Source of the DNA: Saliphagus infecundisoli
GTDB taxonomy: Archaea > Halobacteriota > Halobacteria > Halobacteriales > Natrialbaceae
Assembly (NCBI RefSeq): GCF_020177375.1
Contig: NZ_JAIWHV010000007.1
Location: forward strand, 62,001 to 126,000
DNA length: 64,000 bases
Direction of reading: 5' to 3'
Part shown: positions 34,367 to 51,093 of the stretch, piece after piece
Numbering within the stretch: position 1 is the first letter of the stretch
Layout of the letters: the number at the start of each line of letters is the position of its first letter
The notes under the pieces: model-generated
The model's input: only the letters and a program-made list of their open reading frames with translations
What the model was told of the DNA's origin: nothing
Databases searched by the model: none
Made by a program: the position numbers and the translations under genes

Positions 34367-35245
34367 ATGATCGAGACTCTGCGCGAAACTTTTGATGTTG
34401 TTCTGTTGGGAATTACTATTCTCATGGTGGCGTTTGTAGCGGCTTTTCTAAATGGTGCAGTAGAGATCGGGACGGGTGCCGCTATCTCGATTGCCGCTAC
34501 GCTCTTCGCGGTGTGGGTCGCGTATTTCCAGTCGTTGCAGAATTACAAGCAGGCTAAGGACCAACACGACGATCTGGCCGAATCGCAGCGTGAGATGATC
34601 GAACGGTACGATGAAGAACTTCAGCTTCTCAGAGAACAGATCAAGGAATCTCGGAAAGCACGACTTGAATCACATTTCACTGAACGCGTAGAGATTATTG
34701 AAGAAACCATATCGGTATTAGACACTCATTGGGAAAGTTTGGAAGACCCAGATGGGATAATTTTAAAAGAGCCTGTTTTTGATGAAGACTCTGTTGAAAC
34801 CATACATTTAGAATATTTTAAAGAAGAACACCCAGATCTATTCGAAGAACTTGATGAATACTATGATAAACGTCAAAAATACCACAATGGAATAATTGAT
34901 GTGCGAGACAAGTTGCGCCCACATGTAGAGATCTACCTAAGCAATTCAAAGGATGAACGGACAGATGATGGGGAAGCGATAACTGAATTTCTCCTGTTTG
35001 GAGCAGCACCTCCCCCAAACTGGATTCGAGAAAATCTTGACGTTAATCATGATACTTTTGACCTCAGGGAAGACATTGCTCGCTCAGGAGATTTCGATTC
35101 GGCCCACACAGGGATATTTCTCAATGAACATCCAAGTTGGTGGATGGGTTTTGTTGAGACTCAAAAAGAATTCCGATCAAAACACAAGCATCTGGAAAGA
35201 AAACTTGATGATGTTAAAACAGAACTGAAACGACAGGGCGTATAG
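34367..35245 (+). CDS. Two-span membrane protein with coiled-coil stalk
   Basis: A 292-residue protein. Two hydrophobic segments occupy residues about 10-31 and 35-55, followed by a coiled coil (QKQ-type heptads through QREMIERYDEELQLLREQIK, about 60-105) and a soluble acidic domain. The pattern (short hairpin in the membrane, long cytoplasmic part) is common in element-encoded membrane sensors and effectors, but no family is recognised. Its base composition is low in G+C. A TATTATATG box lies some 30 bases before the ATG. Confidence 0.62.
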   Translation: MIETLRETFDVVLLGITILMVAFVAAFLNGAVEIGTGAAISIAATLFAVWVAYFQSLQNYKQAKDQHDDLAESQREMIERYDEELQLLREQIKESRKARLESHFTERVEIIEETISVLDTHWESLEDPDGIILKEPVFDEDSVETIHLEYFKEEHPDLFEELDEYYDKRQKYHNGIIDVRDKLRPHVEIYLSNSKDERTDDGEAITEFLLFGAAPPPNWIRENLDVNHDTFDLREDIARSGDFDSAHTGIFLNEHPSWWMGFVETQKEFRSKHKHLERKLDDVKTELKRQGV

Positions 35246-35347
35246 CGTAATCATTGAATCATTCTCATCTAATTCATGATAATTAATTTAAATTTATTAT
35301 ATTAATGATTAGGTAGTTTCAAGCCCTGTCCTGTCTATCCCTCCAAT

Positions 35348-35995
35348 ATGCCGAAGCACGGGTACGAACGTATCTGGTTCGATGAAATCACGACGGAGGG
35401 TAAATTTCCACGTGGGGCGTTGACGATGGACGTAGTGTTTGAAGACGACGCTGGGAACGAGTATGTATGGACGCCGAAATGGGAGGAGATGCAGAACTTG
35501 TACTCGACGGCGGAGCGTGTCGAAGAGTTGAATGAAGGGGGTGGGGAATATCTGGAGGAGTTGAAGGCCTTGCAGCGGTTCAGCGGGCCAACAATTATCC
35601 GTCTGGCCAAGTGTATCAGCAATCATACTTCACGCAGTGGTGTTGAAAAGAAACTCAATGATGAGACGGTCATAGGAAAGGAAACAGCCGATAGAGAGCA
35701 GGTTGCCCAGATTTTCACCGAGGCCGATCTTCCGGCACCTGAGTATCCTCGAAAATTCACTATGTCTAATAGATGGAGGCTCATTCGAGATCACCTCCAA
35801 CAATTGAACGAGGAAGACTATCAGAACATCATCGACGTGATTGAGGTGATGGTACACCGAAACCGGCACGTAGATGCGGAGGATCGACGGCGCACGATTA
35901 TTGAGGAGATGAACAAGGTTCTAACGTATGAGAATATGGAGATCACGATTGAAGGGAAAGTGAAACTGATCGGAAGCGAATTTGACGAAGGGTAA
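35348..35995 (+). CDS. Hypothetical protein of the element
   Basis: A 215-residue soluble protein. The first 60 residues (YERIWFDEITTEGKFPRGAL ... WTPKWEEMQNLY) suggest a small beta domain, the rest is helical and basic, ending in MEITIEGKVKLIG. No metal or catalytic pattern is evident and I recognise no family. It follows a very AT-rich 100-base spacer and stands alone. Confidence 0.55.
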   Translation: MPKHGYERIWFDEITTEGKFPRGALTMDVVFEDDAGNEYVWTPKWEEMQNLYSTAERVEELNEGGGEYLEELKALQRFSGPTIIRLAKCISNHTSRSGVEKKLNDETVIGKETADREQVAQIFTEADLPAPEYPRKFTMSNRWRLIRDHLQQLNEEDYQNIIDVIEVMVHRNRHVDAEDRRRTIIEEMNKVLTYENMEITIEGKVKLIGSEFDEG

Positions 35996-36025
35996 TACCG
36001 TTCCATCGTAGCGCGAACCGTGGTG

Positions 36026-36130
36026 TCAATAATATAATAATATCTGACTTTCTTCAAGCTTCTGTTTGGCGTCCTCGATCTGATTCTGGTTACGTTCGAC
36101 CTGATCCATGTTCTCCTGTACGAAGTCCAC
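36026..36130 (-). CDS. Possible short coiled-coil ORF, perhaps a gene remnant
   Basis: The minus-strand frame ending at 36026 reads as a helix rich in E, Q, D and K (VDFVQENMDQVERNQNQIED and on) that extends upstream to a stop without any ATG. The nearest plausible start is GTG at 36130. A TTATAAAA box lies further upstream. Coding character is good but the lack of a proper start suggests a truncated or frameshifted gene. The remaining bases of 35996-36309 contain no other gene that I can support. Confidence 0.25.
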   Translation of the reverse strand: MDFVQENMDQVERNQNQIEDAKQKLEESQILLYY

Positions 36131-36309
36131 GATCCCCTGATCGATCTCTTCATCACCACTAATCTCTCTAAGATATAAGAAATTTTATAACCCCTCACGT
36201 GTTATTCTAATATAAGGAATCACGGATAGCGGTTGCTCTGGGACTAACCGTCTCAGAAACCCGGTGGTAGGTCACCGGATTCGTGCTTCCCACTGCGAGG
36301 TGACAAGCG

Positions 36310-36549
36310 ATGCAAAATACAGGCCGACGAGTGGAAACGCTTTCGAATCAGTATCCCGACGCCGAACGAGTCGGGGATCACATCGTTCTCGACAAATCCG
36401 AGTGGTGTCCTGGGAAACACCCGGAGCCCCACCTCCGCGATGAGCACCAAGTCGGGTACGTCGAGTCGTACTACCGTTGTATTCGGTGTGGGGTCGAGGT
36501 CATGCGGACACGCGATCTTCCTGATGAGTGCGAGGGGGACAAGCAATGA
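36310..36549 (+). CDS. Small zinc-finger-like protein of the element
   Basis: A 79-residue protein with cysteines arranged CPGKHPEPH and CIRCGVEV, compatible with one Cys/His zinc site (about residues 33-60). It begins a run of four or five short, tightly packed genes; its stop overlaps the next start (ATGA at 36546-36549). Such small zinc-finger proteins are common in haloarchaeal plasmids and viruses; function unknown. Confidence 0.62.
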   Translation: MQNTGRRVETLSNQYPDAERVGDHIVLDKSEWCPGKHPEPHLRDEHQVGYVESYYRCIRCGVEVMRTRDLPDECEGDKQ

Positions 36550-37037
36550 GGGTCGTAGATGCTCGAGTCGATTGGAAAGAAGACGTCGGAAACGATCCGG
36601 TTCTCTACGTCCTTGCCGATGAGATCTCACAACTCGATGAAATGCGCTTCGAGCGTCACGAGGACGGCCTGTGGTATGCCGAGAGGGACGGACTTGCACG
36701 CTATTTCTCGTGGTCGGGACCGGGCAACGAGGGCGGGTTCAGCGGCCAATGCTACGCGATCACGACGGTCGACGGCGAAGAGGTGACGCTCAAAGGGCCG
36801 TGGTCAAGCCGGGCGGGCGTCTTCAACAAGCGAGGGTTCGGTCCCGTAGTCGATGTGAGGCTGACGACCGATCCCGAGGGCTTCGAGCGAGGGAGGACGT
36901 TTCGGGGGAGATCGATTACCCTCCGCCAGGCGAAGACAGCGGCCGATATCGTCGGTGGATGCCACCTGGAGAGTGAAATTCGCTTCAACGCTGAGGAGCC
37001 TTACTGGGTTGTCAGGGGCAACGGGGGTGGGGGGTAG
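36546..37037 (+). CDS. Hypothetical protein of the small-gene cluster
   Basis: A 163-residue protein starting at ATG 36546, overlapping the previous stop. It reads as a mainly beta protein (DGLWYAERDGLARYFSWSG, YAITTVDGEEVTLKGPWSS) with a glycine-rich end. The core resembles the element-borne proteins that have a WSSRAGVFN block, but I cannot name a family. It abuts the SWIM-type gene without a gap. Confidence 0.58.
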   Translation: MRVVDARVDWKEDVGNDPVLYVLADEISQLDEMRFERHEDGLWYAERDGLARYFSWSGPGNEGGFSGQCYAITTVDGEEVTLKGPWSSRAGVFNKRGFGPVVDVRLTTDPEGFERGRTFRGRSITLRQAKTAADIVGGCHLESEIRFNAEEPYWVVRGNGGGG

Positions 37038-37418
37038 TTGTCCGAGAGCGTCCAGCCCGACCTCGATGACCGAACGCTTCGGGCGGCGACACAGGAGATG
37101 TGCGTCGAGGAAAAGGCCCGTGCCTTATTCGAGGTCACCAGTGAGTCGGGGAGGACGTACACTGTGGATCTCCGTGAGGGCGTCTGCTCGTGTCCCGATT
37201 TCGAATATCGGGATGGCGTCGAGGAGTGCAAGCATCTGCGGCGAGTTCGGATCGAGGTGAATCAGGTGGACATCGAAGCCCTGCAATCGGAACTCGCCTC
37301 GAGAGCGACGGACCTGCAAGCGGATGCAGAACAGCTCGAAGACGAGGCCCGGAAACTCGATGAACAAGCGAGGGAGATCGAGAACGCACTCGATTCTCTC
37401 CAGGAGGTCGCGCGATGA
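37038..37418 (+). CDS. SWIM zinc-finger protein with C-terminal coiled coil
   Basis: A 126-residue protein. The pattern CSCPDFEYRDGVEECKH gives CxC...CxH, the SWIM zinc finger (about residues 50-66), preceded by the usual strand SGRTYTVDLREGV. A coiled coil rich in E, A and D (about 78-123) follows. Translation appears to begin at TTG 37038, which directly follows the stop of the previous gene. SWIM fingers bind DNA or proteins and are frequent in haloarchaeal plasmids. The stop overlaps the next tiny ORF (ATGA at 37415-37418). Confidence 0.68.
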   Translation: MSESVQPDLDDRTLRAATQEMCVEEKARALFEVTSESGRTYTVDLREGVCSCPDFEYRDGVEECKHLRRVRIEVNQVDIEALQSELASRATDLQADAEQLEDEARKLDEQAREIENALDSLQEVAR

Positions 37419-37507
37419 CCCAGTCTTCACCGCCTCAACCTGGGGGTCGGACTCCGGAAACACCCTTCCACTGGGCGTCCATCGACCGGAGAGGGACGAA
37501 AGGGTAG
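37415..37507 (+). CDS. Possible 30-residue ORF in the small-gene cluster
   Basis: ATG at 37415 overlaps the SWIM-gene stop and opens 30 codons (MTQSSPPQPGGRTPETPFHW and on, ending in TAG 37505-37507). The overlap is the same ATGA coupling as in the neighbours. There is no domain, and proline/threonine-rich content gives little support, so this may be non-coding. Confidence 0.3.
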   Translation: MTQSSPPQPGGRTPETPFHWASIDRRGTKG

Positions 37508-37544
37508 TGAAACAGCTGAACCGAGGTCAGAGTCGGTGCGTTCG

Positions 37545-37799
37545 ATGACCGGGCCTGCGAAGGTACTCCCAGGAGCACAGGTTGGGAACATTTGTTCAGG
37601 CTGTAACAAGGGTATCCAAACAGGTGATCTCGTGCGGCCGTACGCGACCCGGTTTGAGTACGATGGATGGGTGGTCCGACGGCTTTGGTTGACGGCTGTG
37701 GGGAGTCAACGATTGGACGAGGAACAGATGGCGGACGAGGCGATTATCAGGGCGGTCTTCTGGAAACATCGGCTTGCGGCGGTTGTGGTCAATGATTGA
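37545..37799 (+). CDS. Small CxxC protein of the element
   Basis: An 84-residue protein with one CSGC pair near residue 20 (GNICSGCNKGIQTGDLVRPY), which resembles the first half of a LIM- or HNH-like zinc site; the expected second pair is absent, as the matching position reads RRLWLTAVG. It may therefore be a decayed zinc finger. An in-frame GTG at 37536 is an alternative start. It ends the small-gene cluster. Confidence 0.5.
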   Translation: MTGPAKVLPGAQVGNICSGCNKGIQTGDLVRPYATRFEYDGWVVRRLWLTAVGSQRLDEEQMADEAIIRAVFWKHRLAAVVVND

Positions 37800-37921
37800 A
37801 GCAGAGAAAAATGGATCGTAAGAAACCAGAAATCACGCCTATTCATGATTTTATGCATTCAACCGTCTCAATTTGTTCGTTATGTATTTGTAAGTCGCCT
37901 ATCCAGTATAGGACATCCTGC

Positions 37922-40900
37922 ATGAGTCAAGCGACTCTCCACGAACGTCCTTTCGTAAATTCGGGCCTCTTCAAGAATCACTACCTTGACGAACGAGTTA
38001 GTGAACGGAATGAGTGGGAGTGCGACGATGACGCCCGAGAAGCGATGGAAGAACTTCAGTCTCTTTACGAACTGGAGGGTGATCTCGTCATAGGTAAAAA
38101 AGAAGGTGAACTTATCGATGACTGGATTGATGGGGTACTGGAGGCACTCGGCTTCGGTACTCAGAAGGAAATCACCCTACCAGAAGGTGGTGGTTTCGTT
38201 GACGAATTATTATTCGAAAGTCCGGCCGCACGTCGTGATGCCGCAAGGGTTTATTTGGATACCAAGGACACGACTGATCTATTCGAGCGCGCCGTTAGTG
38301 TGGTGGAGGCCAAACAGTGGGATGCCAGTTTCACTGAACGCTTCAGCGAACAACGGCCCTACCGAAACGCCTCACACCAAATTAAACACTACCTCGAAAA
38401 CACAACACCAAATCTCCAGTGGGGTGTCCTCACGAATGGTCGTAAGTGGCGGCTCTATGGCACAAACGACTACGAGACCCAGACCTACTACGAAGTTGAT
38501 CTCCCTGCACTGTTGGAACGTGGTGATCTGGATGCGTTCAAATATTTCTATGTGTTCTTTCGGCCGGCGGCGTTTCATGAATCGATGGGAACCACGTTTC
38601 TCGATGAGGTTTGGTCCGAAAGCGAACTCGCGTCGCAGGAACTCGGAGAAGACCTTCAGGATAACGTCTTTACCGCGCTTCGGGTTCTCGGGCGGGGATT
38701 CATCGAGACCAACGAAGACCTCAACATAGGCTCGAACGACGAGAAGGCGCTGGACGAACTCAAAGAGCAATCGCTGGTGTTACTCTACCGGTTGATGTTC
38801 GTACTGTATGCCGAGGCGCGGGGACTGATCCACCCCGAGAACCAGTCGTCCCAGGACGAATATGAGGAGAATTTCAGTCTTGATGCACTCCGGCTGGGGA
38901 TCCACGAGGAGATCGGTGAAGTTGACGAAGGCTTCGAGGAGGAGTTCAGCGAGTATTCGACCGGAATGTGGGGTCGTCTGGAGGATCTATTTCGACTTAT
39001 TGACCAGGGCGAGGAGAAACTGGGGATCCCGCCGTACAATGGTGGGTTGTTCGACGATGAGGAACACGAATTCCTGGCCGAGCATGAGGTAAGTAACCAG
39101 TATCTTTCTGAGGTCATATACCGGCTTTCAACCACACAGAATGATGATAACCGATATGTATTGGCCGATTATATCGATCTCGATACTCGTCACCTGGGAT
39201 CGGTTTACGAGGGGCTGTTGGAACACCAGTTTCGAATCGCACCCGAACAGTACGTGGCGGTTGCAGAGGACGGGAGCCAGGTCTGGAAGCAAGCCACCGA
39301 AGTGACGGGTGCTGATGCCATCGAGGCGGTGCCCGAAGGTGGGTTATACGTCGTCAATGACGAAGGAGAGCGCAAGGCGACAGGAGCCTATTACACCCCG
39401 GACTATGTGGTGACGTATATCGTCGAGGAAACGGTCGGGCCGCTTGTCAAGGAGACACGGGAAGACCTCATCGAACAGGGTTTCGACCCGGGGACCAAGG
39501 AGTATATCGGCCCGTTCTTCCAGCGCGTAACCGACTTACGAATTCTTGATCCCGCGATGGGGAGTGGTCACTTCTTAACAAAGGCAACGGGCTATCTCTC
39601 TGAACAAGTAATGGCGGAGGTACGCGATGTGGAATCCGAGTTCGGTGTCGCGTTCAACGAACAACACGTCCGTCGAGAGATCGCCAAGGAGTGTATCTAC
39701 GGTGTTGACTTGAATGGAATGGCTGTGGAGTTAGCGAAGCTCTCGATGTGGTTAGAGACGCTTGCAGCGGATCGTCCGTTAGCATTCCTCGATCACCATT
39801 TCAAGCAAGGTAACTCGCTCATAGGGTCGGACATCGAATCCATTGATGAGTTAGAATCAGATGCCAACGATGATGAGGAGCAGTCGTCACTGGCGGAGTT
39901 TGGTGCGACCACAGAGGGGACTATTGAGCGGCTGATGGAGATCTACGGTGAGTTCCTCGCTATCGGAAACGATACAGTTGAAGGCGTCAGGAAGATGAAG
40001 AAAAAATATAATGAGATCGAACAAGATGAATTGCGTCAGCGTTTGGTAGCGATGGCAAACGTCTATTCTGCTGAGAATTTTAAATTAGATCCTCCCAGTG
40101 GAATATATGAAAGGATGGCAAAGGCGCTTGAAGATGATGAGGAGTGGAGTAATGTTACTGAAACAGACTGGTTTAGTCAAGCCCAGGAAATTTCTGATAG
40201 GCATAATTTCTTCCATTGGAGATTATCTTTCCCAGAGGCTTTTTATCGAGAGAACACGGGCCAGGGTGAAAAATTAGAACGGGAAGACCCCGGTTTCGAC
40301 GTAGTAATCGGAAATCCCCCATATTTGAATGCCTGGTCAATGACCGAGAAGATGCCAGAGTTGCGCGAAGCGTTGAAACATCGGTTCGATGATTCTGGGG
40401 CCTTAGAAGGACATTGGGATCTGTATATTCCCTTTGTAGCACATTCAATTGAACTCACCCGAGATCATGGCCATCATTCGTTTATCCTTCCAAACACGGT
40501 ATTAACAGAAAAATACTCAAAACAGTTGAGGGAAATAATCCTTTCAGAACATAAGCTGAAGAGCATACTCGACTTCGAAGAACGGGAGGTCTTTCCTGGA
40601 GTTGATCGACAATGTGTTATTTATACAATCGAGACAAATCACGGTCATTCTGAAGATGAGCATTCACTTCGAACATGCCTACAACAGGACCCCTTCAAAT
40701 ATCAGGAAGAAACTAAAGCAACTCCAGATATCTGGTTGAATGTATATAATCATCAAATCCGCGTTGATGAGGATTATGTTGAAAACCATCTTCAACTGGT
40801 TAAAAAGATAGACAATAATTCTAATGAATTAGGCCAGTATCTCTATGTAAATGTCGGTGCTACCGTCTCAAGTAAGGAATCGGGCGAGTTCACTAAATCA

Positions 40901-42079
40901 GATGTTGTGTCTGATGAACCCGTTGGTAATGCTGAAAAATTCTTTGAAGGAACTGATGTGCAACGGTGGCATATTGACTGGAAAGGTCAATGGCTTGACT
41001 ATAGGGAAGATGAGATGTCGGGATCTCGTCAGTCAGAGATGTTTGAATCTGAAAAGGTTGTAGTCAGGAAGCGAACGGATGAAGGTGGTCAACTCGCAGG
41101 AGCTCTCGACGACGCTTTCATGTACTGTGACGACACAGTGATTGTCTGTTGTGACTACGAACCATTAGAAGGAACCGGTGCGACTACTGATTTCGAAGGG
41201 TTCGAAAGATTAGATGCAACCCCTGATCTGTCATTTATTACGTCACTGATCAACTCTACGTTCATGTCATGGCTGTTCAAATATAAGTTCGAAACCGGGG
41301 CCCTGCAAGGATCATACTCTGACGTCTGGCCACAATCTGTTCGCCATTTTCCGATACCAGATGAAAATACGTACAACTCAGGGTATGGTGATAACAGTAA
41401 CATTACAAATTATGAAGAGAAACTATCCAGTTTATTTTCTGATATTGTTGAAAGTAAATCTGAGAAGGAAAACCTGAATCTTGATTTAGCGGATTATCTC
41501 GGCAATTATGACGATGGATCGACCCTTTCTGATCTGTCGCCGATTCGTCCAGAGGGTTTTGCTGATAGCATACTGAATGAGAGCGAGGGAACGACTGATG
41601 AGTTTGAAACTCTTCGAGTCACAGATATTGAAATACATCGAGAAAATGACACTCTAACTATCGTTGCCATCCCATATGTGAAACCAAATGAGTCTGTCCA
41701 AGATGAATATGACACAAATAACCGGGATTACACAACGCTTGATCCAGAGCCAGCGATGGTCTTCCAGGGACTTGATGAAGAGATGATCGCACTGATCAGT
41801 GGATTTGTCCCGTACGCTATAGCCAACGAAGAAGGAGGATTCTCAGATAATGCAACGAAAACGATTTCACTAATTGATCGGCTTGAAGACATCACCCTTC
41901 CGGAATTAGATGATGTGAAGGAAGATATAGGTCGTTACCGAGAGAAGGTTAATCGTGCGGATGAGCTGAATGACCGGATACAGGAAAAAGAGCGTATTAT
42001 CGACGAACTGGTATACGAATTGTACGACCTGACAGAGGAAGAGATCGAAATTGTAGAGGACGCAGTAGCTGATGACTGA
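37922..42079 (+). CDS. Type IIG-like restriction-modification enzyme (Eco57I/PglX-type methylase)
   Basis: A 1385-residue protein. Near residues 85-130 a PD-(D/E)XK-like pattern ends in VVEAKQW. Between about 520 and 830 lies an N6-adenine methyltransferase: the GAYYTPDYVVTYIV block, motif I ILDPAMGSGHF (about 540) and motif IV GNPPY (about 797). The last third should carry target recognition and a coiled coil (about 1345-1380). Size and order match single-chain restriction-methylases and BREX PglX-like enzymes. The ATG at 37922 gives MSQATLHERPFVNSGLF; the upstream extension to 37796 is cysteine-rich and not conserved-looking. It overlaps the next gene by eight bases. Confidence 0.85.
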   Translation: MSQATLHERPFVNSGLFKNHYLDERVSERNEWECDDDAREAMEELQSLYELEGDLVIGKKEGELIDDWIDGVLEALGFGTQKEITLPEGGGFVDELLFESPAARRDAARVYLDTKDTTDLFERAVSVVEAKQWDASFTERFSEQRPYRNASHQIKHYLENTTPNLQWGVLTNGRKWRLYGTNDYETQTYYEVDLPALLERGDLDAFKYFYVFFRPAAFHESMGTTFLDEVWSESELASQELGEDLQDNVFTALRVLGRGFIETNEDLNIGSNDEKALDELKEQSLVLLYRLMFVLYAEARGLIHPENQSSQDEYEENFSLDALRLGIHEEIGEVDEGFEEEFSEYSTGMWGRLEDLFRLIDQGEEKLGIPPYNGGLFDDEEHEFLAEHEVSNQYLSEVIYRLSTTQNDDNRYVLADYIDLDTRHLGSVYEGLLEHQFRIAPEQYVAVAEDGSQVWKQATEVTGADAIEAVPEGGLYVVNDEGERKATGAYYTPDYVVTYIVEETVGPLVKETREDLIEQGFDPGTKEYIGPFFQRVTDLRILDPAMGSGHFLTKATGYLSEQVMAEVRDVESEFGVAFNEQHVRREIAKECIYGVDLNGMAVELAKLSMWLETLAADRPLAFLDHHFKQGNSLIGSDIESIDELESDANDDEEQSSLAEFGATTEGTIERLMEIYGEFLAIGNDTVEGVRKMKKKYNEIEQDELRQRLVAMANVYSAENFKLDPPSGIYERMAKALEDDEEWSNVTETDWFSQAQEISDRHNFFHWRLSFPEAFYRENTGQGEKLEREDPGFDVVIGNPPYLNAWSMTEKMPELREALKHRFDDSGALEGHWDLYIPFVAHSIELTRDHGHHSFILPNTVLTEKYSKQLREIILSEHKLKSILDFEEREVFPGVDRQCVIYTIETNHGHSEDEHSLRTCLQQDPFKYQEETKATPDIWLNVYNHQIRVDEDYVENHLQLVKKIDNNSNELGQYLYVNVGATVSSKESGEFTKSDVVSDEPVGNAEKFFEGTDVQRWHIDWKGQWLDYREDEMSGSRQSEMFESEKVVVRKRTDEGGQLAGALDDAFMYCDDTVIVCCDYEPLEGTGATTDFEGFERLDATPDLSFITSLINSTFMSWLFKYKFETGALQGSYSDVWPQSVRHFPIPDENTYNSGYGDNSNITNYEEKLSSLFSDIVESKSEKENLNLDLADYLGNYDDGSTLSDLSPIRPEGFADSILNESEGTTDEFETLRVTDIEIHRENDTLTIVAIPYVKPNESVQDEYDTNNRDYTTLDPEPAMVFQGLDEEMIALISGFVPYAIANEEGGFSDNATKTISLIDRLEDITLPELDDVKEDIGRYREKVNRADELNDRIQEKERIIDELVYELYDLTEEEIEIVEDAVADD

Positions 42080-42785
42080 TTACCCTTTGTTAGAAGAAGA
42101 GTATCCTACTGCTCGTATAATTCGGAGCACCCTCACGGAGTTCGTTAGGGAACTCGCTGACGAACTATCTCGATCAACAGTCACGAAGCTCGTGTTTGGG
42201 ACCGTCAGCTTGTCTGATTCCGACCTCAATTTTGGCTACAAATGCGAAGAGTTCACCCGAATCCTTCTTGTCGATAATCTTTTAGACGCAGTGAACCTAC
42301 AGTATCGTCCCGAACCGAAGGCGCGGGGTCTCGAGCGTGATCGTTGGCCCGATTTTGAACTATCAAATACTGTGATTCCAGTAGTAGGAGAGATTAAACC
42401 GCTCAACGATATTTCAGCCGGTGAGGATCAGATCAAAGCCTACCTGAGCATTGACGGCTTCGACACACCATACGGGATCTTAACTGATGGAATTGAATGG
42501 CGAGTATACGGTCCTGACCGCTCGGGAGCGGGATACTCCATTTGGGAACAGGTCCGGTTGGATAACGCGTTTCAGATGGTAGCGGATGATCAAGAAGTGA
42601 TTAGGAGTACTGGCTTGAGGTCAACAATCCGCAAAGAAGGAGTGGCTCAAATCACGGACTTCGTCCGGACGTTTGAACGCAATCAATTCGATGACCGGAC
42701 GCTAATTGCCCTACCAAAACCAGAACGTGAACTATACATTCCAGACAACTACGATTCGCAATCGTCCTTCGACGATTTTCAATAG
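42072..42785 (+). CDS. PD-(D/E)XK-like partner of the restriction-methylase
   Basis: A 237-residue protein with the pattern WPDFELSNTVIPVVGEIKPL near residues 92-111, the Asp...Glu-x-Lys arrangement of restriction-endonuclease folds, followed by DQIKAYLSIDGFDTPYGILTDG, the helix and strand usual in type I HsdR-like N-terminal domains. Its ATG lies eight bases inside the methylase gene, so the two are made together. It may supply or modulate cleavage; alternatively it could be a specificity or anti-self factor. Family name not recognised. Confidence 0.65.
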   Translation: MTDYPLLEEEYPTARIIRSTLTEFVRELADELSRSTVTKLVFGTVSLSDSDLNFGYKCEEFTRILLVDNLLDAVNLQYRPEPKARGLERDRWPDFELSNTVIPVVGEIKPLNDISAGEDQIKAYLSIDGFDTPYGILTDGIEWRVYGPDRSGAGYSIWEQVRLDNAFQMVADDQEVIRSTGLRSTIRKEGVAQITDFVRTFERNQFDDRTLIALPKPERELYIPDNYDSQSSFDDFQ

Positions 42786-42969
42786 ACCGCCAACACAATG
42801 GTAAGTAGAAATTCCCCCGTTTAATAACCATATTATTGTATTATACGGAACGGTTGAGAGTCCCATTCTACAACTGAGCGCACCCTGCTATCAGCCTCGC
42901 AATCCGCACCACCATTATCCCGAGTTGATACTCCACTATTGATTTAGTGTCCTATCTCAAAGACGGACT
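42786..42969 (+). repeat. Intergenic stretch with a solo TIR copy
   Basis: CTGCTATCAGCCTCG at 42885-42899 is identical to the right ends of the two short repeats at 46.8-47.0 and 49.2-49.4 kb, preceded by a similar ACTGAGCGC. No matching left end occurs upstream, so this is a solo end or a decayed copy. The remaining ~170 bases contain no gene. Confidence 0.5.
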
Positions 42970-43923
42970 ATGGAGAGATACGTCGCACAAATCCAAGATC
43001 ATAACCTCCGGACTGTATGGGAAAACGAAGAGCGTGGTTTCACTCGATGGCTCGCGGAGAACATTGATCTACTGGGCTCAGAACTCGGAATTGAGCTTGA
43101 AGATGCGCGCACTGAGGAAGCAGTAGGGGATTTTTCGTCCGACATCGTGGCTCGGGAGATGAATACCGGCGAAACGGTTGTAATCGAGAATCAGTACGGT
43201 AACACCGATCACGATCACCTTGGGAAGCTATTGACGTACTCTTCTGGGAAGAATGCTGGTTTCACAATTTGGTTAGCTGAAAACTTTAGGCCCGAACATC
43301 GTAGTGTTCTGGAATGGCTTAATGAAAGTGGCCCCAAAGATGTGAAGTTCTTCGCCATCAAACCACGGGTACTGAGCATAGAGGGCTCAGACGAACGAGG
43401 GTTTGAATTTGAGATTGTCGTTGAACCCAATGACTGGGAACGGGAGATTGTTGATGACTCTCTTACGGAGACGGAACACAGCTATCGTGAGTTTTTCGCA
43501 GAGATGGTGGACACATATTCGGCAAGACGACCTACTTGGAACAAGCTGAAACCGGGCCCTCGAAATTACCTTACTTTTAGTGCTGGGACGAGTGGTGTCA
43601 GTTTCGGGTGGGTCTTTCATCAGACACCTGGTTTCTCCGTGGAGCTGTATATTCAGACCTCAGACCCCGACCGAAATTTGGCTATCTTTGAGGCTCTGAA
43701 GGAGGAAAGCGACAAGATCGAGTCGAATCTTGATGCTGAATTGATTTGGCAACGGCTTCCGGAAAAAGCCGCTTGTCGTATCAAGTGGGCAAAGCCGATT
43801 GAACGAAGGATCACCGAGTTGAGTATGGATCAGCGAGCGCAACTGATCGAGTGGGGTGCGGAAACGATGGACGAGTTCCAGGAGGACTTGGAACCTCGTA
43901 TCCGTTCCTTGGACGTGAGTTAA
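42970..43923 (+). CDS. DUF4268-like protein with PD-(D/E)XK-type N-terminus
   Basis: A 317-residue protein. The N-terminal domain has SSDIVAREMNTGETVVIENQ near residues 55-74, the Asp...Glu-x-Gln/Lys pattern of a restriction-endonuclease fold, then HDHLGKLLTYSSG. The C-terminal half (RPTWNKLKPGPRNYLTFSAG, then RIKWAKPIERRITE) matches what I know of DUF4268, a domain found in mobile-element and defence contexts. The third catalytic residue is Gln (ENQ), as in some active members. It has its own promoter region. Likely role: nuclease in defence; not proven. Confidence 0.7.
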   Translation: MERYVAQIQDHNLRTVWENEERGFTRWLAENIDLLGSELGIELEDARTEEAVGDFSSDIVAREMNTGETVVIENQYGNTDHDHLGKLLTYSSGKNAGFTIWLAENFRPEHRSVLEWLNESGPKDVKFFAIKPRVLSIEGSDERGFEFEIVVEPNDWEREIVDDSLTETEHSYREFFAEMVDTYSARRPTWNKLKPGPRNYLTFSAGTSGVSFGWVFHQTPGFSVELYIQTSDPDRNLAIFEALKEESDKIESNLDAELIWQRLPEKAACRIKWAKPIERRITELSMDQRAQLIEWGAETMDEFQEDLEPRIRSLDVS

Positions 43924-44233
43924 TTCTGTGACCTGTTTGCTCTCACCTAATCCTACTTCCGCGGTTGAGCGTAGAGTGTGTTTATCCTCGTTCGAGACTT
44001 GTACCACAGAGGCTGCAATCAGAGAGAACAGGCTGATTCGGGTTCTGAAGCCGAAGTGTAATCGATAAATTAATTTATTCAATAGCACTGAATGACATCT
44101 TCAGCGGAGGCAAAATTGCTATACTTCGGGGGCTTCAACCTACTCCAGAGGGCGACTCCATGCTACTCGCTCATCGTGAACCGCGGGAGTAGGACTAAGG
44201 AAGTGAGTACAATCCCATCGGAGGCGTCCTTCT
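43924..44233 (+). other. Intergenic stretch without a recognisable gene
   Basis: About 310 bases between a forward gene and the end of a reverse gene. An AT-rich patch (AATTAATTTATTCAAT near 44066-44081) is visible. Short open frames here have no coding character. Confidence 0.4.
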
Positions 44234-45541
44234 CTAATCGCTTCCAGTACGACGCTGTTCGCAGGCTGAGGCGATTTGCTTCATCTTCTCAGTCTCATGG
44301 TTTACAGGCTCGAGAGCACTTGACAACCCACGGGCTGCATAGAGGAAGAGCCGGAAGTGTCCGTTCTCGTCGGGGTTCATCCTACTGGTGTTTTTCGCGT
44401 ACCACACTTGATAAGCTGAACTGTGGTCGGGTGCTACCGTGATGGCTGGACTGGCCCACTCAACGCATCGAGCACGAAGTACGGGTTCAACGACATTCTG
44501 GTGGTAGTGGGGAGCAAGGTCAGACCAGTGATTAAGGAGGAGCAACCGTTTGCTCTCAATGTCCGGCACCGATAGAATCTCTTGGTACAGTCGCTCAGGT
44601 TTCAGAATCTCATCACTTTCAATAGCGGCGAGGTAAAAGTCCTCGTCGGCGAGAGTGAACGGCTGTGATTCAAAGTTACCGATATCGATTGAATCCGATT
44701 CATAGGTGATGCGAAGACCGTTGTAATCGGCTTGAACGCTAACCCGTGGCTCGCTCAGTGAGACGCTCTCGGAGGTCGAATCTTGAATGCGGGTGATTGA
44801 CGGCCGGTCGTATTGGTTCGTCAGCGTCTGGCGTGCCTTTGATGTTCGCGCTGGATCGACTGAGACCGTGTAGATATTGTCGGGTGTTGTCTCAACGAGA
44901 TCTCGCTTGCCATCGGTTCCCAACTCAGTGAGGATAATTGGATCACCGAACGGATCGAAGGCGAAGACGTGGGCCTTATTCCCTCGTTTGACGGTTCCAT
45001 CGGGGCCGGATCCATGCGTCGTACAAACGACGTAGGCGCCGTTTTCGATTGCTCGCGCTTGGAGTACCTCACCCCATTTTTTCGCTACAACTGGTGTTGC
45101 ACTCACGTTGAGCAACAGAGAAGCGCCGGCCAGTCCTTCGTATCCCATGAACGGCGAGAAATACTGGTCGTGACAGATCGTGGTCCCGACAGTCGTTCCC
45201 CGAAATTCTGTCGTCTTGAGTGCGTCTTCGGGGTGCCAGTCGTCCAGTTCAAGCGCAAGCTTCCCGGCGGAACTGTGTTTCGTATAGGTGAAATCGGTAT
45301 CCGTCGCTGGATCATAGAAGATACCCCTGATCCAGTCACCGTCATCGAACCCTGCATAGAGCGCCACATCAAGCTCGTCAGCGGTCTGCTTCCAGTGATC
45401 ACGGTTCTTCCAGTGGTCGTGGTTCTCGGGCACGAGCAGGAGGTCAAGGTCGCTCTCGGCAATCTGTGTTCGCTCCTCGTCGGTAAATTTACGGTGCCAG
45501 TGCTTCGGGAGCCATGCTCCGACGTGGATCGGGTCAGTCAT
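44234..45541 (-). CDS. Nitrilase-superfamily (carbon-nitrogen hydrolase) protein of the defence-like pair
   Basis: A 435-residue protein. Residues about 1-240 are a C-N hydrolase domain with the Glu-Lys-Cys triad recognisable as E39 (LLVPENHDHW), K88 (FTYTKHSS) and C123 (TTICHDQYF), and the family block WGEVLQARAIENGAYVV. The remaining ~195 residues form an unrelated C-terminal domain that I cannot name, with no membrane segment. The start codon lies eight bases inside the upstream nuclease-like gene, so the two are coupled. C-N hydrolases cleave amides, nitriles or ureas; here the substrate could be a nucleotide-, cofactor- or protein-derived amide, which is inference. Confidence 0.75.
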   Translation of the reverse strand: MTDPIHVGAWLPKHWHRKFTDEERTQIAESDLDLLLVPENHDHWKNRDHWKQTADELDVALYAGFDDGDWIRGIFYDPATDTDFTYTKHSSAGKLALELDDWHPEDALKTTEFRGTTVGTTICHDQYFSPFMGYEGLAGASLLLNVSATPVVAKKWGEVLQARAIENGAYVVCTTHGSGPDGTVKRGNKAHVFAFDPFGDPIILTELGTDGKRDLVETTPDNIYTVSVDPARTSKARQTLTNQYDRPSITRIQDSTSESVSLSEPRVSVQADYNGLRITYESDSIDIGNFESQPFTLADEDFYLAAIESDEILKPERLYQEILSVPDIESKRLLLLNHWSDLAPHYHQNVVEPVLRARCVEWASPAITVAPDHSSAYQVWYAKNTSRMNPDENGHFRLFLYAARGLSSALEPVNHETEKMKQIASACEQRRTGSD

Positions 45542-46628
45542 GGTCCATCACCTGAGTTTCGACGTTCCGGATGCCCAGTGCCTGCTCGTACGTCTCGATC
45601 TTCGTCTCTATGCGGCGTCGTTTCGTTTCGTTCGGGACTACGATCTGACCAACGGTTGGATAGGCACCCAGATTGAGTACCCCACCAGCCGCGTGTTTCC
45701 CGGCGGAGCTCTCGAGCTCGAACCCATAGAGTGGATGTAGGCTTTCGGCTTCCCGAAGGAGTGGGGTATGCGTCTCGAAGTCAGGGTCGAGGTCAACAAC
45801 TGCGGTAAGGAACTCTTTGAACGATGCTGGATACGGCATCGTCCATGTGAGATCAATTTTTGACCCCGTGTAGTAGGTTCGCCACCCTCGGAAGGTCTTC
45901 CGCTCCCCCTCGGGGTCCCACGCGTACTGCTCATGGTCCGTGGTCCCGTCAGCCTCTTGCCAGAGGTCGCGATGGCGATCGTAGGCTTGGCTAAGGTCGT
46001 CAGGGATCCAGTCCTCTTTGACGACGAAGCCCATCTCTTTGCCCATATCGGCGAGCTGACGCCGCGTTCGGGTACTCCACTCCTTTTCTCCGCCAGCACC
46101 CTCAGAGATATCGTGTTCGAATGCTGGCTGATCGGTTGATCCACCCCACTCCCGATTAACGAGATCCGTCAGATGGCTTCGGTCAAGACAGAGACAGTTG
46201 GTATGACCGTGGAGTTGCCTGAAGGTCCGGACAATACGCTTGCCACGGCGATAGAGACCGCCCTCGCGTTCTTCGTCTACGATTAGGATTCCAATCGGTG
46301 CCCCGATCGCTTGGAGGTTCGCCAGATCGGCTGTCATCGTTTTCGTCGTGGGATCCGACGCTTCGATCTCGAAGGCAACCAGGGGGAACCGCCGATACTG
46401 CTCGTCATCTTCGAAGCCGAAGTAGTCGGATAACTGTGTGGTATCGAGTCCTAATTCCCGGAGATCGAGATACCAGACGACATCGACTCGCGGGGTGTAG
46501 CTCTCCTCGAGCGCCACCGAGAGAAAGGTATCATCGATTTCCTCGGCGGTCGAGAATCCGAGTTGGGTACCTAACTCGTGGACCTCCTCTTTGATCGGGG
46601 TGGCCCGATCTGTGTATGACATGGTCAC
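45534..46628 (-). CDS. Restriction-endonuclease-like protein paired with the nitrilase gene
   Basis: A 364-residue protein. The N-terminal half has a PD-(D/E)XK-like layout: D49 in RVDVVWYLDL, then E87-x-E89 in FPLVAFEIEASD, then a helix and strand (NLQAIGAPIGILIVDEE). The usual third Lys is replaced by Glu, with Lys96 nearby, so activity is uncertain. The C-terminal half (GKEMGFVVKEDWIPDDL, then KIDLTWTMPYPASF) may be a second degenerate nuclease-like domain with Asp and a following strand. An ATG at 46622 is an alternative start. It overlaps the nitrilase gene by eight bases and precedes it in the operon. Confidence 0.65.
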   Translation of the reverse strand: MTMSYTDRATPIKEEVHELGTQLGFSTAEEIDDTFLSVALEESYTPRVDVVWYLDLRELGLDTTQLSDYFGFEDDEQYRRFPLVAFEIEASDPTTKTMTADLANLQAIGAPIGILIVDEEREGGLYRRGKRIVRTFRQLHGHTNCLCLDRSHLTDLVNREWGGSTDQPAFEHDISEGAGGEKEWSTRTRRQLADMGKEMGFVVKEDWIPDDLSQAYDRHRDLWQEADGTTDHEQYAWDPEGERKTFRGWRTYYTGSKIDLTWTMPYPASFKEFLTAVVDLDPDFETHTPLLREAESLHPLYGFELESSAGKHAAGGVLNLGAYPTVGQIVVPNETKRRRIETKIETYEQALGIRNVETQVMDHD

Positions 46629-46769
46629 TGATTCAAACGACTTCTTGATTAAAGTTCGCCATAGAGAGAAAGTCCGAAGTTGAGTACGCTTGCCTGGATT
46701 TGGAGGGGTGCACCACTAATCAGAGAATGCGGAGTAGTCCCAGCTCTGTGGGCCAAGTTTCGCTAATGA
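46629..46769 (-). other. Upstream region of the nuclease-nitrilase pair
   Basis: Promoter-sized stretch between the start at 46628 and the short repeat. On the minus strand a frame ending near 46719 reads SLAKLGPQSWDYSAFSD after the repeat's left end, which looks like the tail of a lost gene. No intact gene. Confidence 0.35.
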
Positions 46770-46967
46770 CGGAGCTGATAGCAGTGACCGCTCAAGTGAT
46801 ACAGAGATTGGTGGTTCGTGTCCGAATCTTCGACGAATGCTATACGTTAGCGTGGCCAGCCGATAGGTAGGTCAAATTTCATCCGTCGCATTCGTGCTGG
46901 ATAGGACAGATTTCGCAGCGACTTACGTCCCTATATACCGATCTGACCCTCACTGCTATCAGCCTCG
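46770..46967 (+). repeat. Short TIR-bounded repeat, copy A (MITE-like)
   Basis: 198 bases bounded by CGGAGCTGATAGCAG (46770-46784) and its inverted counterpart CTGCTATCAGCCTCG (46953-46967). Inside, CGCTCAAGTGATA beside the left end and GCCGATAGGT in the middle are shared with copy B. A partial further end, CGTAGCTGATAGCA, lies at 46987-47000. There is no transposase inside. Whether it is a non-autonomous insertion or a decayed gene with flanking repeats is open. Confidence 0.55.
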
Positions 46968-47089
46968 GAAGCACGCTTTTTTAGAACGTAGCTGATAGCA
47001 CCTCGAGACAGCGAGAATGCAGACCCGTATCTCGTAGTTGTCGATAGCCCACTGTAACTGACCTTATTATACCTCATGTAACCAAATTC
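46968..47089 (-). other. Short intergenic stretch with a partial repeat end
   Basis: After repeat A comes a T run (GCACGCTTTTTT, read on the plus strand) and a partial repeat end at 46987-47000. No gene is seen before the convergent end of the winged-helix gene at 47090. Confidence 0.35.
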
Positions 47090-48127
47090 TCAGGGAGAGA
47101 CGGACAATATGTTAGTTATCTCTCCTTTAGCTATTTTCAGCCCTTCAACAACTTTTCGCTTCCTCATCCCATCTTTCATATCACCATTTCTGGAACAATC
47201 AAATAAGCCGTTGAGGAAATCACGTATTCGGTCATTGTCGCTTAGAATACTATCAGATATGATTCCGCTTTCAATTACTGCATAATTTCCGTTCTCAGGT
47301 GAAAAAGAATCTTCGGATAACTCTACGTCTCGGACTCCAAGTTCTTGATCCGCCACAACAAGTGATGGATAATCACTAATGTCAAATCCACTGATTAAGG
47401 CATCCCACAATTCTATTCGGATCCGATCCCGATCGATCATTGCAACTTCCAGTTGACTACGATTTCGCCCAAGTAAGGTCAATTCATCATCTAAGGCCTT
47501 GAATTTACTATCTTCCCGAGAGTATGAATCATCGGTGAAGTAATAAAAATATGCGTTAGTCTCGCGCTTTGGCATCTGATATAACGTATGTGGTGTAGCT
47601 TGTAGACGTTCTCCAAAGGTTGTGGGGGTATTAGAGCTTCTTTTGGGTAGCCGCTCAAATTCTGATCTGGCATCTGGGTCAAAGAGCGTCTTTGTATCTG
47701 CATCTGTCACGTCCGTATATCCATCATATTTATTATATACATATTCAAGTATCTCGGAAATAGTTTTATTATTGTATTTCCCCTTTATATCATTGACAAT
47801 GTCAAATACACCATCATTCCCAAGTCCAAGAAGTCGTTGTGCTTCTTGCACTCCTTTGTTAGTTAAGCTATATGTTATTCTGGAGTATCCATATTCATTT
47901 GTGTTGACTTCTCTTTCAATATATCCCTCATTATCAAGTGTTTCCAGGTCGGAACGAAGTTGAACTGAAAAGGGTCCGAAACGATCCGCTCGATAGTCAT
48001 ATACATCTTTCAACTTTGTTTCTTCCTGAGCCAGGAAAACAAGCTTTTGGAAGCGTGTCGCTCCATCAATCGACGTAGTATTATCCGTATAAAGGAAGAT
48101 GACAGGGAGCTTTGATTTAGAACTCAT
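47090..48127 (-). CDS. Winged-helix-like protein of the element (Panacea/SocA-like N-terminus)
   Basis: A 345-residue protein. The N-terminal ~100 residues (RFQKLVFLAQEE, then YRADRFGPFSVQLRSDLETL, then YSLTNKGVQEAQRLL) follow the pattern of small winged-helix antitoxin-like or protease-adaptor-like domains that start with a LxKLxFLxQ helix and a FGPFS block. The C-terminal ~200 residues are unrecognised. The start at 48127 (MSSKSKLPVIFLYTDN) is preferred over 48220, whose extra 31 residues are basic and unlike the rest. Low G+C content. Possible regulator or toxin-antitoxin-type gene; not certain. Confidence 0.6.
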   Translation of the reverse strand: MSSKSKLPVIFLYTDNTTSIDGATRFQKLVFLAQEETKLKDVYDYRADRFGPFSVQLRSDLETLDNEGYIEREVNTNEYGYSRITYSLTNKGVQEAQRLLGLGNDGVFDIVNDIKGKYNNKTISEILEYVYNKYDGYTDVTDADTKTLFDPDARSEFERLPKRSSNTPTTFGERLQATPHTLYQMPKRETNAYFYYFTDDSYSREDSKFKALDDELTLLGRNRSQLEVAMIDRDRIRIELWDALISGFDISDYPSLVVADQELGVRDVELSEDSFSPENGNYAVIESGIISDSILSDNDRIRDFLNGLFDCSRNGDMKDGMRKRKVVEGLKIAKGEITNILSVSP

Positions 48128-48235
48128 AACGGTTTTGTTTTGATCGTAGCGATGAGGTCGAACGGGATAACCAAAGAAACTTTTGGTAATCCTGACAAGC
48201 GTTCTTCGCTTGTGTACCACTCCGATACTGCGTGA

Positions 48236-48347
48236 GTCGCGGCCAATAAACAGAGAGGAAGACGCAGGTAGCAGCGATTAAGACGGCTGGGAGTACGAGA
48301 ACGAAGACAGCGAATGGGTTCCGATCAACGAACTCACGGAGGGATAA
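48236..48347 (+). pseudogene. Decayed duplicate of the small acidic gene at 48535
   Basis: In one frame this stretch reads INREEDAGSSD, a TAA stop at 48279-48281, then DGWEYENEDSEWVPINELTE and a final TAA at 48345-48347. This parallels the 45-residue ORF downstream (GEDARASYSYDGW ... GEWVPIRELSE). The internal stop and missing start mark it as a broken copy. The duplication brackets the small gene at 48350. Confidence 0.5.
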
Positions 48348-48349
48348 CC

Positions 48350-48523
48350 ATGGAACGTTTGCCTGACCATCTTAACCTGAAGCTCGGACAGTTGGGTGAC
48401 AGCACTACCTTACGCCACGTCTACAAGCGAGGGGACTACAGCGGCAATACGGTAACGGCGACGATAAAAGGCGAACGAATCGATGTCAGCGGTGATCCTG
48501 AATCGGATAACTCTGATAGTTGA
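48350..48523 (+). CDS. Small hypothetical protein of the element
   Basis: A 57-residue ORF starting MERLPDHLNLKLGQLGDSTT three bases after the preceding decayed copy, with a middle that looks like beta strands (NTVTATIKGERIDVSG) and an acidic end. A longer in-frame start at 48314 overlaps the decayed copy. No family recognised. Spacing of 11 bases to the next small ORF suggests joint expression. Confidence 0.42.
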   Translation: MERLPDHLNLKLGQLGDSTTLRHVYKRGDYSGNTVTATIKGERIDVSGDPESDNSDS

Positions 48524-48534
48524 CCCGAACGCCG

Positions 48535-48672
48535 ATGGGTGCTGCTCGGGTCGCTGATCGCCACTATCGAGGCGAAGATGCCCGCGCTTCCTACAGTTAC
48601 GACGGATGGAGCTGGTGGGAATATCAAAACAAAGACGGGGAATGGGTTCCGATCAGGGAGCTTTCAGAGTAG
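48535..48672 (+). CDS. 45-residue small protein, intact copy of a duplicated gene
   Basis: ATG at 48535 opens 45 codons reading MGAARVADRHYRGEDARASY, then SYDGWSWWEYQNKDGEW and VPIRELSE, ending in TAG. The last two thirds are tryptophan- and tyrosine-rich and are mirrored by the decayed copy at 48282-48347, where WVPI(N/R)EL(T/S)E is conserved. That conservation is the main support for coding. Function unknown. Confidence 0.42.
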   Translation: MGAARVADRHYRGEDARASYSYDGWSWWEYQNKDGEWVPIRELSE

Positions 48673-48745
48673 CGTGTAAGTGAATTTATATTCCTCTCTG
48701 ATTTTAATCGTTACTATGATTAGATCGGGCTGATATTATACCTTT

Positions 48746-49057
48746 ATGAGCATTAGTAGTAAGCTCAGACAGGAACTGGACAACTTGGCTTCAGATACAG
48801 AGATTAATAACCTCACAAGTGGGGATGCAGATCTACACATCGTACATAATCCTAACGATATAGATTACTACCATATTGAGGGCGGAAGTATATACAAAGC
48901 GTCTATGGAGTTAGAGCTTGATAATAATACAAGCCAAATGGCATTCATATTTCCGGTTGACACCTCCTCTGAGGGTGAACTGATAAGTGACCTGAATAAC
49001 GCAAATCAAGCAGAGATCACTTATAAAATGGGTGATTGGAGTAGCCTTCTACCTTGA
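48746..49057 (+). CDS. Hypothetical acidic protein of the element
   Basis: A 103-residue acidic protein beginning MSISSKLRQELDNLASDTEI, helical at first and then beta-like (DLHIVHNPNDIDYYHIEGG). A GATATTATACC box lies about 15-20 bases before the ATG. No motif or family recognised; low G+C content. Confidence 0.5.
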   Translation: MSISSKLRQELDNLASDTEINNLTSGDADLHIVHNPNDIDYYHIEGGSIYKASMELELDNNTSQMAFIFPVDTSSEGELISDLNNANQAEITYKMGDWSSLLP

Positions 49058-49219
49058 TTGAGAAGTATTCTCGTCCGGCGTAGGACACAAGTCGGTGGCC
49101 GCCGTTGTGTAGGTCCCTGTCTTCGAGCTGGTCATATACGGTTTCGCCCACTCACGCTTCCGGGTAACCGTCGCATACGTCAGGGTTTCGTAGTAGGGAT
49201 ACATGGAGTTCTCTTCGTA
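49058..49219 (-). other. Stretch with coding-like remnant on the minus strand
   Basis: On the minus strand a frame ending near 49049 reads SMYPYYETLTYATVTRKREW and on, emerging from repeat B. It has plausible protein character but its only start lies in the repeat. It may be the end of a gene broken by the repeat. No intact gene is supported. Confidence 0.35.
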
Positions 49220-49407
49220 CGAAGCTGATAGCAGTGAGCGCTCAAGCGATATTAGAGAGTAGTGGTTTGCGTTCGAAACCCCAGCGTTACCAACTGTTAC
49301 CATTCCCGGCCGATAGGTGGATCGTGTCTCTATCTTGAGCCAATATGTTTCATGAGCCTTCAGACCAATCGTAGCTTCCCTTACTGAGCGCCCTGCTATC
49401 AGCCTCG
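49220..49407 (+). repeat. Short TIR-bounded repeat, copy B (MITE-like)
   Basis: 188 bases bounded by CGAAGCTGATAGCAG (49220-49234) and CTGCTATCAGCCTCG (49393-49407), a near-perfect 15-base inverted pair. CGCTCAAGCGATA beside the left end and GGCCGATAGGT in the middle match copy A. Copy B reads through as an open frame on the minus strand, copy A does not. Confidence 0.55.
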
Positions 49408-49703
49408 CCATCGCGCTACAACAGACTCGCGATTCGAGATCCGTTTCTCACCCAGAAGGTCGCTCTCCCCTAATAACTGCATAGAGGCCATCAAAATAGT
49501 TAATTCGACTGAACCAGATTTTGGCTATAGTTAATTAATAGTAATTCATCGTATCTACCGAATTAACTGTGTTCCGGCCTTGAGGGGACTGAATGACTTT
49601 GAATACCCGGAAGTGTGCCTCACAATTGTGCCTTGGAACTGAATCCAGCGACGATCTGGGATGGGGCCCGTAGAGTTTTACTGCACGTGTTCGTTCTTCT
49701 GGT
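49408..49703 (+). other. Intergenic stretch before the right-end gene
   Basis: No gene is supported. An AT-rich patch (TAGTTAATTAATAGTAATTC near 49526-49545) and a GAGTTTTACTG box about 27 bases before the ATG at 49704 are the only features noted. Confidence 0.4.
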
Positions 49704-50678
49704 ATGCCGTTCAACGTCTCGTGGCACACGCTCCTCGACCAGCTTGACGAGTTATCACAGGGGGCGACACTCATTACGCCATTGTCCGGCGACCGGTTCC
49801 ACATCACCGACGTTCAAGAACACCGTGTCGTGATCGAACTCGAAGACTCGGGTGAATCACGTCCGCTCCAGCGGGACCAATTCGAGACACTCTTTCGGCG
49901 GATCACGGAGGATGCGGGCCGATTCAAACTCGAGCGGCTCCCACCCGATGCGGACCCGTATCCAACTGTGTTGAGTCTCCACCCGCGCTTCGAGATCGAC
50001 GAGGACGACGGCGTGATCATCGAGAGGGATGGCCCGACGACAACCCAACTTCTCGATGACGACCACGCTCACGATGAGGAGAACGAAGAACGGACGGAGC
50101 CGGATCTGGACGTCTATGCGGACGCGCTCTTGCTTGTTGACGCGCTTGAGCGCCACGACGTGAGCACACTTGCAGAGGTGGAGTCGAACGCCCTGGTGAA
50201 CCTCTACACGCTTCTCTCGGACGTTCAGCGAAACGCGGATACTCTCCGGAAGGACGTCGCTGACGTGCTCCTGAATCGCCTGCATCACGATCGACCGGTC
50301 AGTGGGCCGTTTGGATCCGTCCAGCGGACAGCACGCCGTAATCGCTCTCTCAAGGACGATGAGGAGGTGCTGGCGGCCCTCGAGAACGAAGGTATTGATC
50401 GGGAGCGGGTGATGGGTGTGGATCGATCAAGAGTCGATGAGGCGCTGGAAGTGACCGAGTTGGCTGAGTCAGATGTCTACGAGATTCAGGAGAGCGAGTA
50501 CGTTCGGAAGGCCGACGTAGACGAGGACGTAAAGGAAACCCGCCTCCAGGGACTAAAGGATCAGCTCGCTGCGACTGAGGATGAGGGTGCCGAAGAACTC
50601 CGCCAAGAGATTGAGGACTTGGAGGGGCGGATCGAGGAGTTGACGAGCTTTCGAACAGGGACTCAGATGCACGAATGA
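49704..50678 (+). CDS. Conserved-looking hypothetical protein at the right end of the element
   Basis: A 324-residue acidic protein. The N-terminal ~90 residues (SWHTLLDQLDELSQGATLIT, DRFHITDVQEHRVVIELEDS) look like a small beta domain; the middle is helical; the C-terminus is a coiled coil (LQGLKDQLAATEDEGAEELR, about 280-315). It has higher G+C content and better haloarchaeal codon use than the rest of the element. I have the impression that similar proteins occur on haloarchaeal plasmids but cannot name the family. Confidence 0.6.
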   Translation: MPFNVSWHTLLDQLDELSQGATLITPLSGDRFHITDVQEHRVVIELEDSGESRPLQRDQFETLFRRITEDAGRFKLERLPPDADPYPTVLSLHPRFEIDEDDGVIIERDGPTTTQLLDDDHAHDEENEERTEPDLDVYADALLLVDALERHDVSTLAEVESNALVNLYTLLSDVQRNADTLRKDVADVLLNRLHHDRPVSGPFGSVQRTARRNRSLKDDEEVLAALENEGIDRERVMGVDRSRVDEALEVTELAESDVYEIQESEYVRKADVDEDVKETRLQGLKDQLAATEDEGAEELRQEIEDLEGRIEELTSFRTGTQMHE

Positions 50679-51093
50679 TTGGACGCGATGTGGGGAACTC
50701 TACGGGCGAAGATTGGAATATACATCAGAACCCGATCACACTACGCGGCGACAGAATGATAGATAAAAGCAACTATTTAGTCTGATTAGTGCGTTAGATG
50801 GCCCGTAGCTCGACTAATCACCACTTTAGACTTATATATAATATCGAAGTGTTCCGGGCGACACTCTCTCGATCGCGGGCGGTTCTCGCAGAATCTCGAC
50901 CGTCTGGGTACGTACCGGCTACCGGCGTAACCTCGACCGATGACGACACGCAGACCACCTCCTGTCCTCTGATTTGCGTGGTTTCGGAGCGACGTCGGGA
51001 CGCGTTCGTCGCAGAAACGTCGGCCCGTCCGTAGCCCCCGGCGGCTGTGCTGCCGGGCGCTACCCCGCAGAAGGACGCTTCGGAACGCCGTAT
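50679..51093 (+). other. Right end of the element and chromosomal junction, no gene
   Basis: The stretch crosses the right attachment core. Left of it the sequence is AT-rich (CTTATATATAATATCGA), right of it GC-rich chromosome. Joining the left flank to the right flank through the core would restore one frame that stays open for about 25 codons past the core. Open frames here are not convincing as genes. Confidence 0.45.
50848..50864 (+). repeat. Right attachment site (attR core) of the integrated element
   Basis: Exact copy of the 17-base core AGTGTTCCGGGCGACAC at 28663-28679, in direct orientation. Base composition changes sharply here. The octamer CCACTTTA at 50821-50828, just inside, matches one just inside the left core and may be an integrase arm site. 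Confidence 0.8.

Follow-up and report, generated by a model that had tools for sequence, protein, structure and literature searches.

Overlapping genes for a nitrilase-superfamily enzyme and a nuclease-like protein on an integrated element of Saliphagus infecundisoli: a possible antiviral cargo module

Our data tentatively point to two co-translated proteins that would form an accessory antiviral (or anti-element) module and are encoded in the cargo of an integrated element of the archaeon Saliphagus infecundisoli, the sole member of its genus in our genome set. One protein, P0001, belongs to the nitrilase superfamily, and the other, P0002, is plausibly a tandem PD-(D/E)XK-like protein. We consider this the best explanation of the locus and give it somewhat less than an even chance, our confidence being modest at best because the pair occurs only once. 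The features discussed lie in a window of 64,000 nucleotides (i.e., the whole stretch of DNA analysed here) and are collected in Table 1.

Table 1. Features of the integrated element and of the P0001-P0002 locus, in window positions
Feature	Position	Strand	Evidence or remark
Integrated element	28663..50864		17-bp direct repeats, integrase, primase-helicase, GC drop
Tyrosine recombinase (integrase)	29367-30452		left end of element
D5/DUF5906 primase-helicase	31914-33563		inside element
Type IIG-like restriction-modification (RM) enzyme, 1427 aa	37796..42079	+	Eco57I methylase, TaqI_C specificity domain
237-aa protein with GEIK-type (D/E)xK motif	42072..42785	+	8-nt overlap with RM gene; motif read from sequence
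DUF4268 gene, PADLOC candidate PDC-S11	42970..43923	+	E 1.4e-100; convergent with P0001-P0002 pair
P0001, nitrilase-superfamily (CN_hydrolase) enzyme, 435 aa	44234..45541	-	Pfam, haloarchaeal alignment, PDB match
8-nt overlap of P0001 and P0002 genes	45534..45541	-	ORF coordinates
P0002, probable tandem PD-(D/E)XK-like protein, 364 aa	45534..46628	-	motifs, half-to-half alignment, low-confidence models
TATA-like TTTAAT	46648..46653	-	25 nt before ATG 46622; read from sequence
Winged-helix-like protein	47090..48220	-	PDC-M19A and DarG C-terminal likeness; 461 nt upstream of P0001-P0002 pair
phrog_35116 protein, end gene of element	49704..50678	+	PHROGs match

P0001 is a nitrilase-superfamily enzyme with an additional C-terminal region

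Judged by its sequence, P0001 is a genuine nitrilase-superfamily enzyme. Its CN_hydrolase part (residues 1-252) matches Pfam PF00795 with an E-value of 8e-8 (32.3 bits against a cut-off of 23.2), and P0001 also matches a solved protein of the superfamily in the PDB (3p8k, E 2.5e-6). We aligned P0001 with 10 haloarchaeal nitrilases, to which it is 27-33% identical, and found that E39, K88, E98 and C123 sit in invariant columns, so that the catalytic tetrad is complete. An earlier note on this DNA had described the Glu39/Lys88/Cys123 triad as intact, as it indeed is, and E98 can be added to it as the fourth catalytic residue. With its fold signature and tetrad P0001 resembles CN_hydrolase enzymes such as Nit2/omega-amidase and deaminated glutathione amidase; in contrast to these, it scores well below the NCBIfam equivalog cut-offs and carries an extra C-terminal region, and its E39-K88 segment is shorter by approximately 20 or more residues than in housekeeping nitrilases. 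Furthermore, KHSSAGK stands where housekeeping nitrilases keep KHHLFGY after the lysine. The short segment and the altered motif suggest that the substrate of P0001 may have changed. The C-terminal region (approximately residues 253-435, i.e., some 180 residues) matched no Pfam family at cut-off, in agreement with the earlier note, which had called this domain unknown, and a likeness to DUF6969 (E 0.006) was rejected as below cut-off. No PADLOC model matched P0001.

The chemistry of nitrilases allows for modification-dependent restriction, in which P0001 would act on the nitrile or amide of a modified base (e.g., a viral 7-deazaguanine such as preQ0) and P0002 would cut the DNA. The case for it is a chemical one, namely that preQ0 is a nitrile and that the DNA of some viruses is known to contain 7-deazaguanine bases. 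It is highly improbable, however, given that nitrilases bind free metabolites in a small active-site pocket and that we recognised no domain for base flipping or DNA binding.

P0002 is plausibly a tandem PD-(D/E)XK-like protein

P0002 has no match in Pfam, NCBIfam, PADLOC or PHROGs, and its assignment as a plausible tandem PD-(D/E)XK-like protein draws on motifs, an internal alignment and structure models. The motif D...E-x-E occurs in the first half (D49/E87xE89) and again in the second (D259/E304xE306), which recalls the E-x-E type of PD-(D/E)XK enzyme (i.e., a BamHI-like motif). An end-to-end alignment of the two halves gives 25% identity and places D, P-L, F-E-x-E, K and N-L in register. 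The half-to-half score lies at a z of approximately 3 against shuffled sequences and was reached by 28 of 3000 shuffles (p approximately 0.01), and two of 258 control fragments from real proteins equalled it. We regard this as suggestive of diverged repeats. The second motif, and with it the apparent duplication, had escaped the earlier note, as had the PADLOC listing of the DUF4268 gene.

AlphaFold models from the single sequence and from a two-row alignment were of low confidence (pLDDT 37 and 44, respectively) and showed, in the N-terminal half, which is the best modelled, an alpha-beta-beta-alpha-beta order compatible with a PD-(D/E)XK core (alpha-beta-beta-beta-alpha-beta). A PDB fold search returned nothing significant and, like the models, was set aside as uninformative. 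P0002 differs from the PD-(D/E)XK enzymes in lacking a recognised family, in its apparent tandem duplication and in carrying E where the motif has K. The earlier note had called P0002 PD-(D/E)XK-like, a proposal that the D...E-x-E motifs make plausible and that no profile or structure match corroborates.

The missing matches in profiles, PDB and structures, together with a duplication significance of only about 0.01 and two controls that score as high, would fit a P0002 that is no nuclease, its repeated E-x-E likeness being due either to chance or to a degenerate fold that only binds. We judge this improbable, as a chance likeness is at odds with the motif residues being in register in both halves and with the expected order of secondary structure. 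It is also at odds with a short archaeal protein, found in two phylum-level genomes (L105:1195-1770 and L103:1402-1773), whose P-[LI]-x-x-FEIE...K block resembles that of P0002 (E 0.01-0.02). The short protein has no aligned D strand, and its L105 copy ends in a weakly rubredoxin-like tail (E 5e-4, below cut-off). A P0001 query found no match in either of these genomes.

The two genes are tightly coupled

As the earlier note claimed, P0001 and P0002 are encoded by two minus-strand reading frames that share eight nucleotides. Both are coding-like in their GC content by codon position (0.60/0.42/0.61 for P0001 and 0.64/0.42/0.65 for P0002), position 2 being the lowest. From the overlap we infer co-translation. 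P0002 may start at the ATG at 46622, and the TTTAAT before this codon would fit a possible leaderless archaeal promoter.

Overlapping genes, a possible promoter of their own and a mobile element are also what a toxin-antitoxin-like or element-maintenance pair would offer, in which one protein restrains the other (e.g., P0002 holds the nitrilase inactive) and the element is stabilised. Such a pair appears quite improbable to us, since both proteins are large, unlike classical toxin-antitoxin pairs, and neither matches a known toxin-antitoxin family.

The genes lie in an apparently recurrent slot for defence genes

Within the window the GC content drops from approximately 70% to approximately 42-57% between 28 and 51 kb. 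A perfect 17-bp direct repeat, AGTGTTCCGGGCGACAC, at 28663-28679 and 50848-50864 bounds a 22.2-kb element in this region, and with the integrase at the left end these data bear out the integrated element of the earlier note. Its description of the neighbours was likewise correct: we found an Eco57I-type RM methylase followed by a 237-aa protein, and the DUF4268 gene. The N-terminus of the RM enzyme is weakly HSDR_N/MmeI_N-like, and the 237-aa protein has no family match. On the other side of the pair, the winged-helix-like protein resembles PADLOC PDC-M19A and the DarG C-terminal region (E 2e-11, 2.5e-5) as well as the end of a type I specificity subunit, and might be a further defence or regulatory gene.

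In a related element (L082, genome G309), homologues of phrog_35116 and of o36528, o37038 and o37536 flank a type I RM system and a relative of PDC-S11, and in a second region (L075, genome G119) a type IIG enzyme and an SNF2/HKD helicase lie near the same end gene, phrog_35116. The slot, which carries defence genes here and in L082, thus seems to be used repeatedly for defence cargo. This recurrence backs an antiviral role of the P0001-P0002 pair by association only. PDC-S11 shares the cargo slot with the pair and stands beside RM genes in L082 too; it differs in being a separate, convergent gene outside the P0001-P0002 operon. The genes o36528, o37038 (SWIM-like) and o37536 (36528-37799) are small and are kept as a block in L082, to the left of the slot. 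Homologues of the phrog_35116 protein occur in 102 of the 125 family genomes, with up to 12 matches in a single genome, and lie close to RM or helicase genes in both related regions scanned.

The pair was found in one genome

Across 391 genomes of the class, P0002 was found in its own genome alone. The same genome gave the only convincing match when P0002 and the P0001 tail were queried against 125 family and 393 phylum genomes (overlapping samples), and when a profile of the P0002 half-repeat was run on the class sample. Plasmids and phages were searched by tblastn, and viral and genome contigs were scanned for close relatives. These searches yielded no P0002, and for P0001 they gave generic nitrilase matches or none, the close-relative scans finding nothing. 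P0002 and the P0001 tail thus seem to have no recognisable full-length relatives in the genome samples, phages, plasmids and viral contigs, a result bounded by search sensitivity because single-sequence searches can miss distant relatives. As a check, the earlier note had proposed to see how often homologues are neighbours and lie in defence islands, and no such recurrence was seen: the pair was absent from every other genome searched. Haloarchaeal genomes gave some weak matches (L033-L044, L047-L050), and those inspected were put down to chance (an integrase, Elp3-like and TenA-like proteins and out-of-frame sequence). Nitrilases on viral contigs (L085-L088) were judged by eye to be ordinary YafV/Nit2-like enzymes and were dismissed as relatives of P0001.

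These distributions lend weight to a serious rival, namely two independent passengers: P0002 would be a lone restriction-type nuclease, P0001 an acquired metabolic amidase or nitrilase, and the overlap a matter of compact packing. Nitrilase matches turned up in 323 of 391 genomes, such enzymes being common in haloarchaea, and the two genes were not seen as a pair elsewhere in the genome samples. Against this, the 8-nt overlap implies co-translation, and the low identity of P0001 to housekeeping enzymes, its short E-K segment and its extra 180-residue region set it far apart from them. We regard independent passengers as somewhat less likely than the antiviral module.

Comparison with nitrilases in known defence systems

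Prior studies have validated the reverse transcriptase (RT)-nitrilase systems DRT1 (UG1) and UG5 as antiviral (PMC13275509, PMC9122126), and the nitrilase effector of DRT1 leads to abortive infection (PMC13275509). P0001 shares with them a nitrilase domain whose active site is intact and which in DRT1 and UG5 serves antiviral defence, whereas its own C-terminal region, its nuclease-like partner and the absence of a PADLOC match set it apart. Pfam and PADLOC searches detected no RT domain in either protein of the locus, and the pair is therefore not a member of DRT1 or UG5; by analogy it may nevertheless work like them. The earlier note knew of no described defence system with both folds. The nitrilase fold itself is not new in defence, given the DRT1/UG5 precedent; the pairing of a nitrilase with a nuclease or nuclease-like protein does appear to be undescribed, no description having been found in the literature searched.

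Returning to the antiviral module, we propose that P0002 would bind or cut invading DNA and so serve as the sensor or first effector, while P0001 would perhaps be kept inactive by its own C-terminal region or by P0002. Infection would then free P0001, whose hydrolysis of an essential amide or nitrile metabolite would stop the cell, by analogy with the proposal for the DRT1 nitrilase. The data partly support the earlier guess of a sensor or effector nuclease joined to an enzyme for an amide-type signal or cofactor: the intact nitrilase, the tight coupling, the mobile element, the recurrent defence slot and a probably nuclease-like P0002 speak for it, and the pair was not seen to recur. That the locus represents a new type of antiviral system, with a tandem E-x-E nuclease-like protein that senses or cuts DNA and gates a stand-alone, RT-less nitrilase with a regulatory C-terminal region, is in our view rather unlikely. 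In the literature searched, defence nitrilases are known only as fusions to reverse transcriptases. If the proposal is true, a nitrilase with a nuclease-like partner would show the nitrilase to be a portable effector, and P0001 would offer a simpler protein for finding the substrate.

The left repeat of the element ends a conserved, probably non-coding RNA gene

The left attachment repeat forms the 3' end of a conserved RNA gene (28603-28679), probably a non-coding one. Of 41 haloarchaeal genomes, 34 matched, and in most of these a block of mostly 73-90 nt is conserved at 81-94% identity. In an alignment of the plus-strand loci alone (minus-strand loci were not reoriented and were left out), conservation ends at the attachment repeat. 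The match of the RNA to Rfam HgcG is weak, involves the 3' part of that family and stays under the gathering threshold (12.6 bits, E 0.29). The tyrosine recombinase of the element seems to use this RNA gene, in place of a tRNA gene, as its attachment site.
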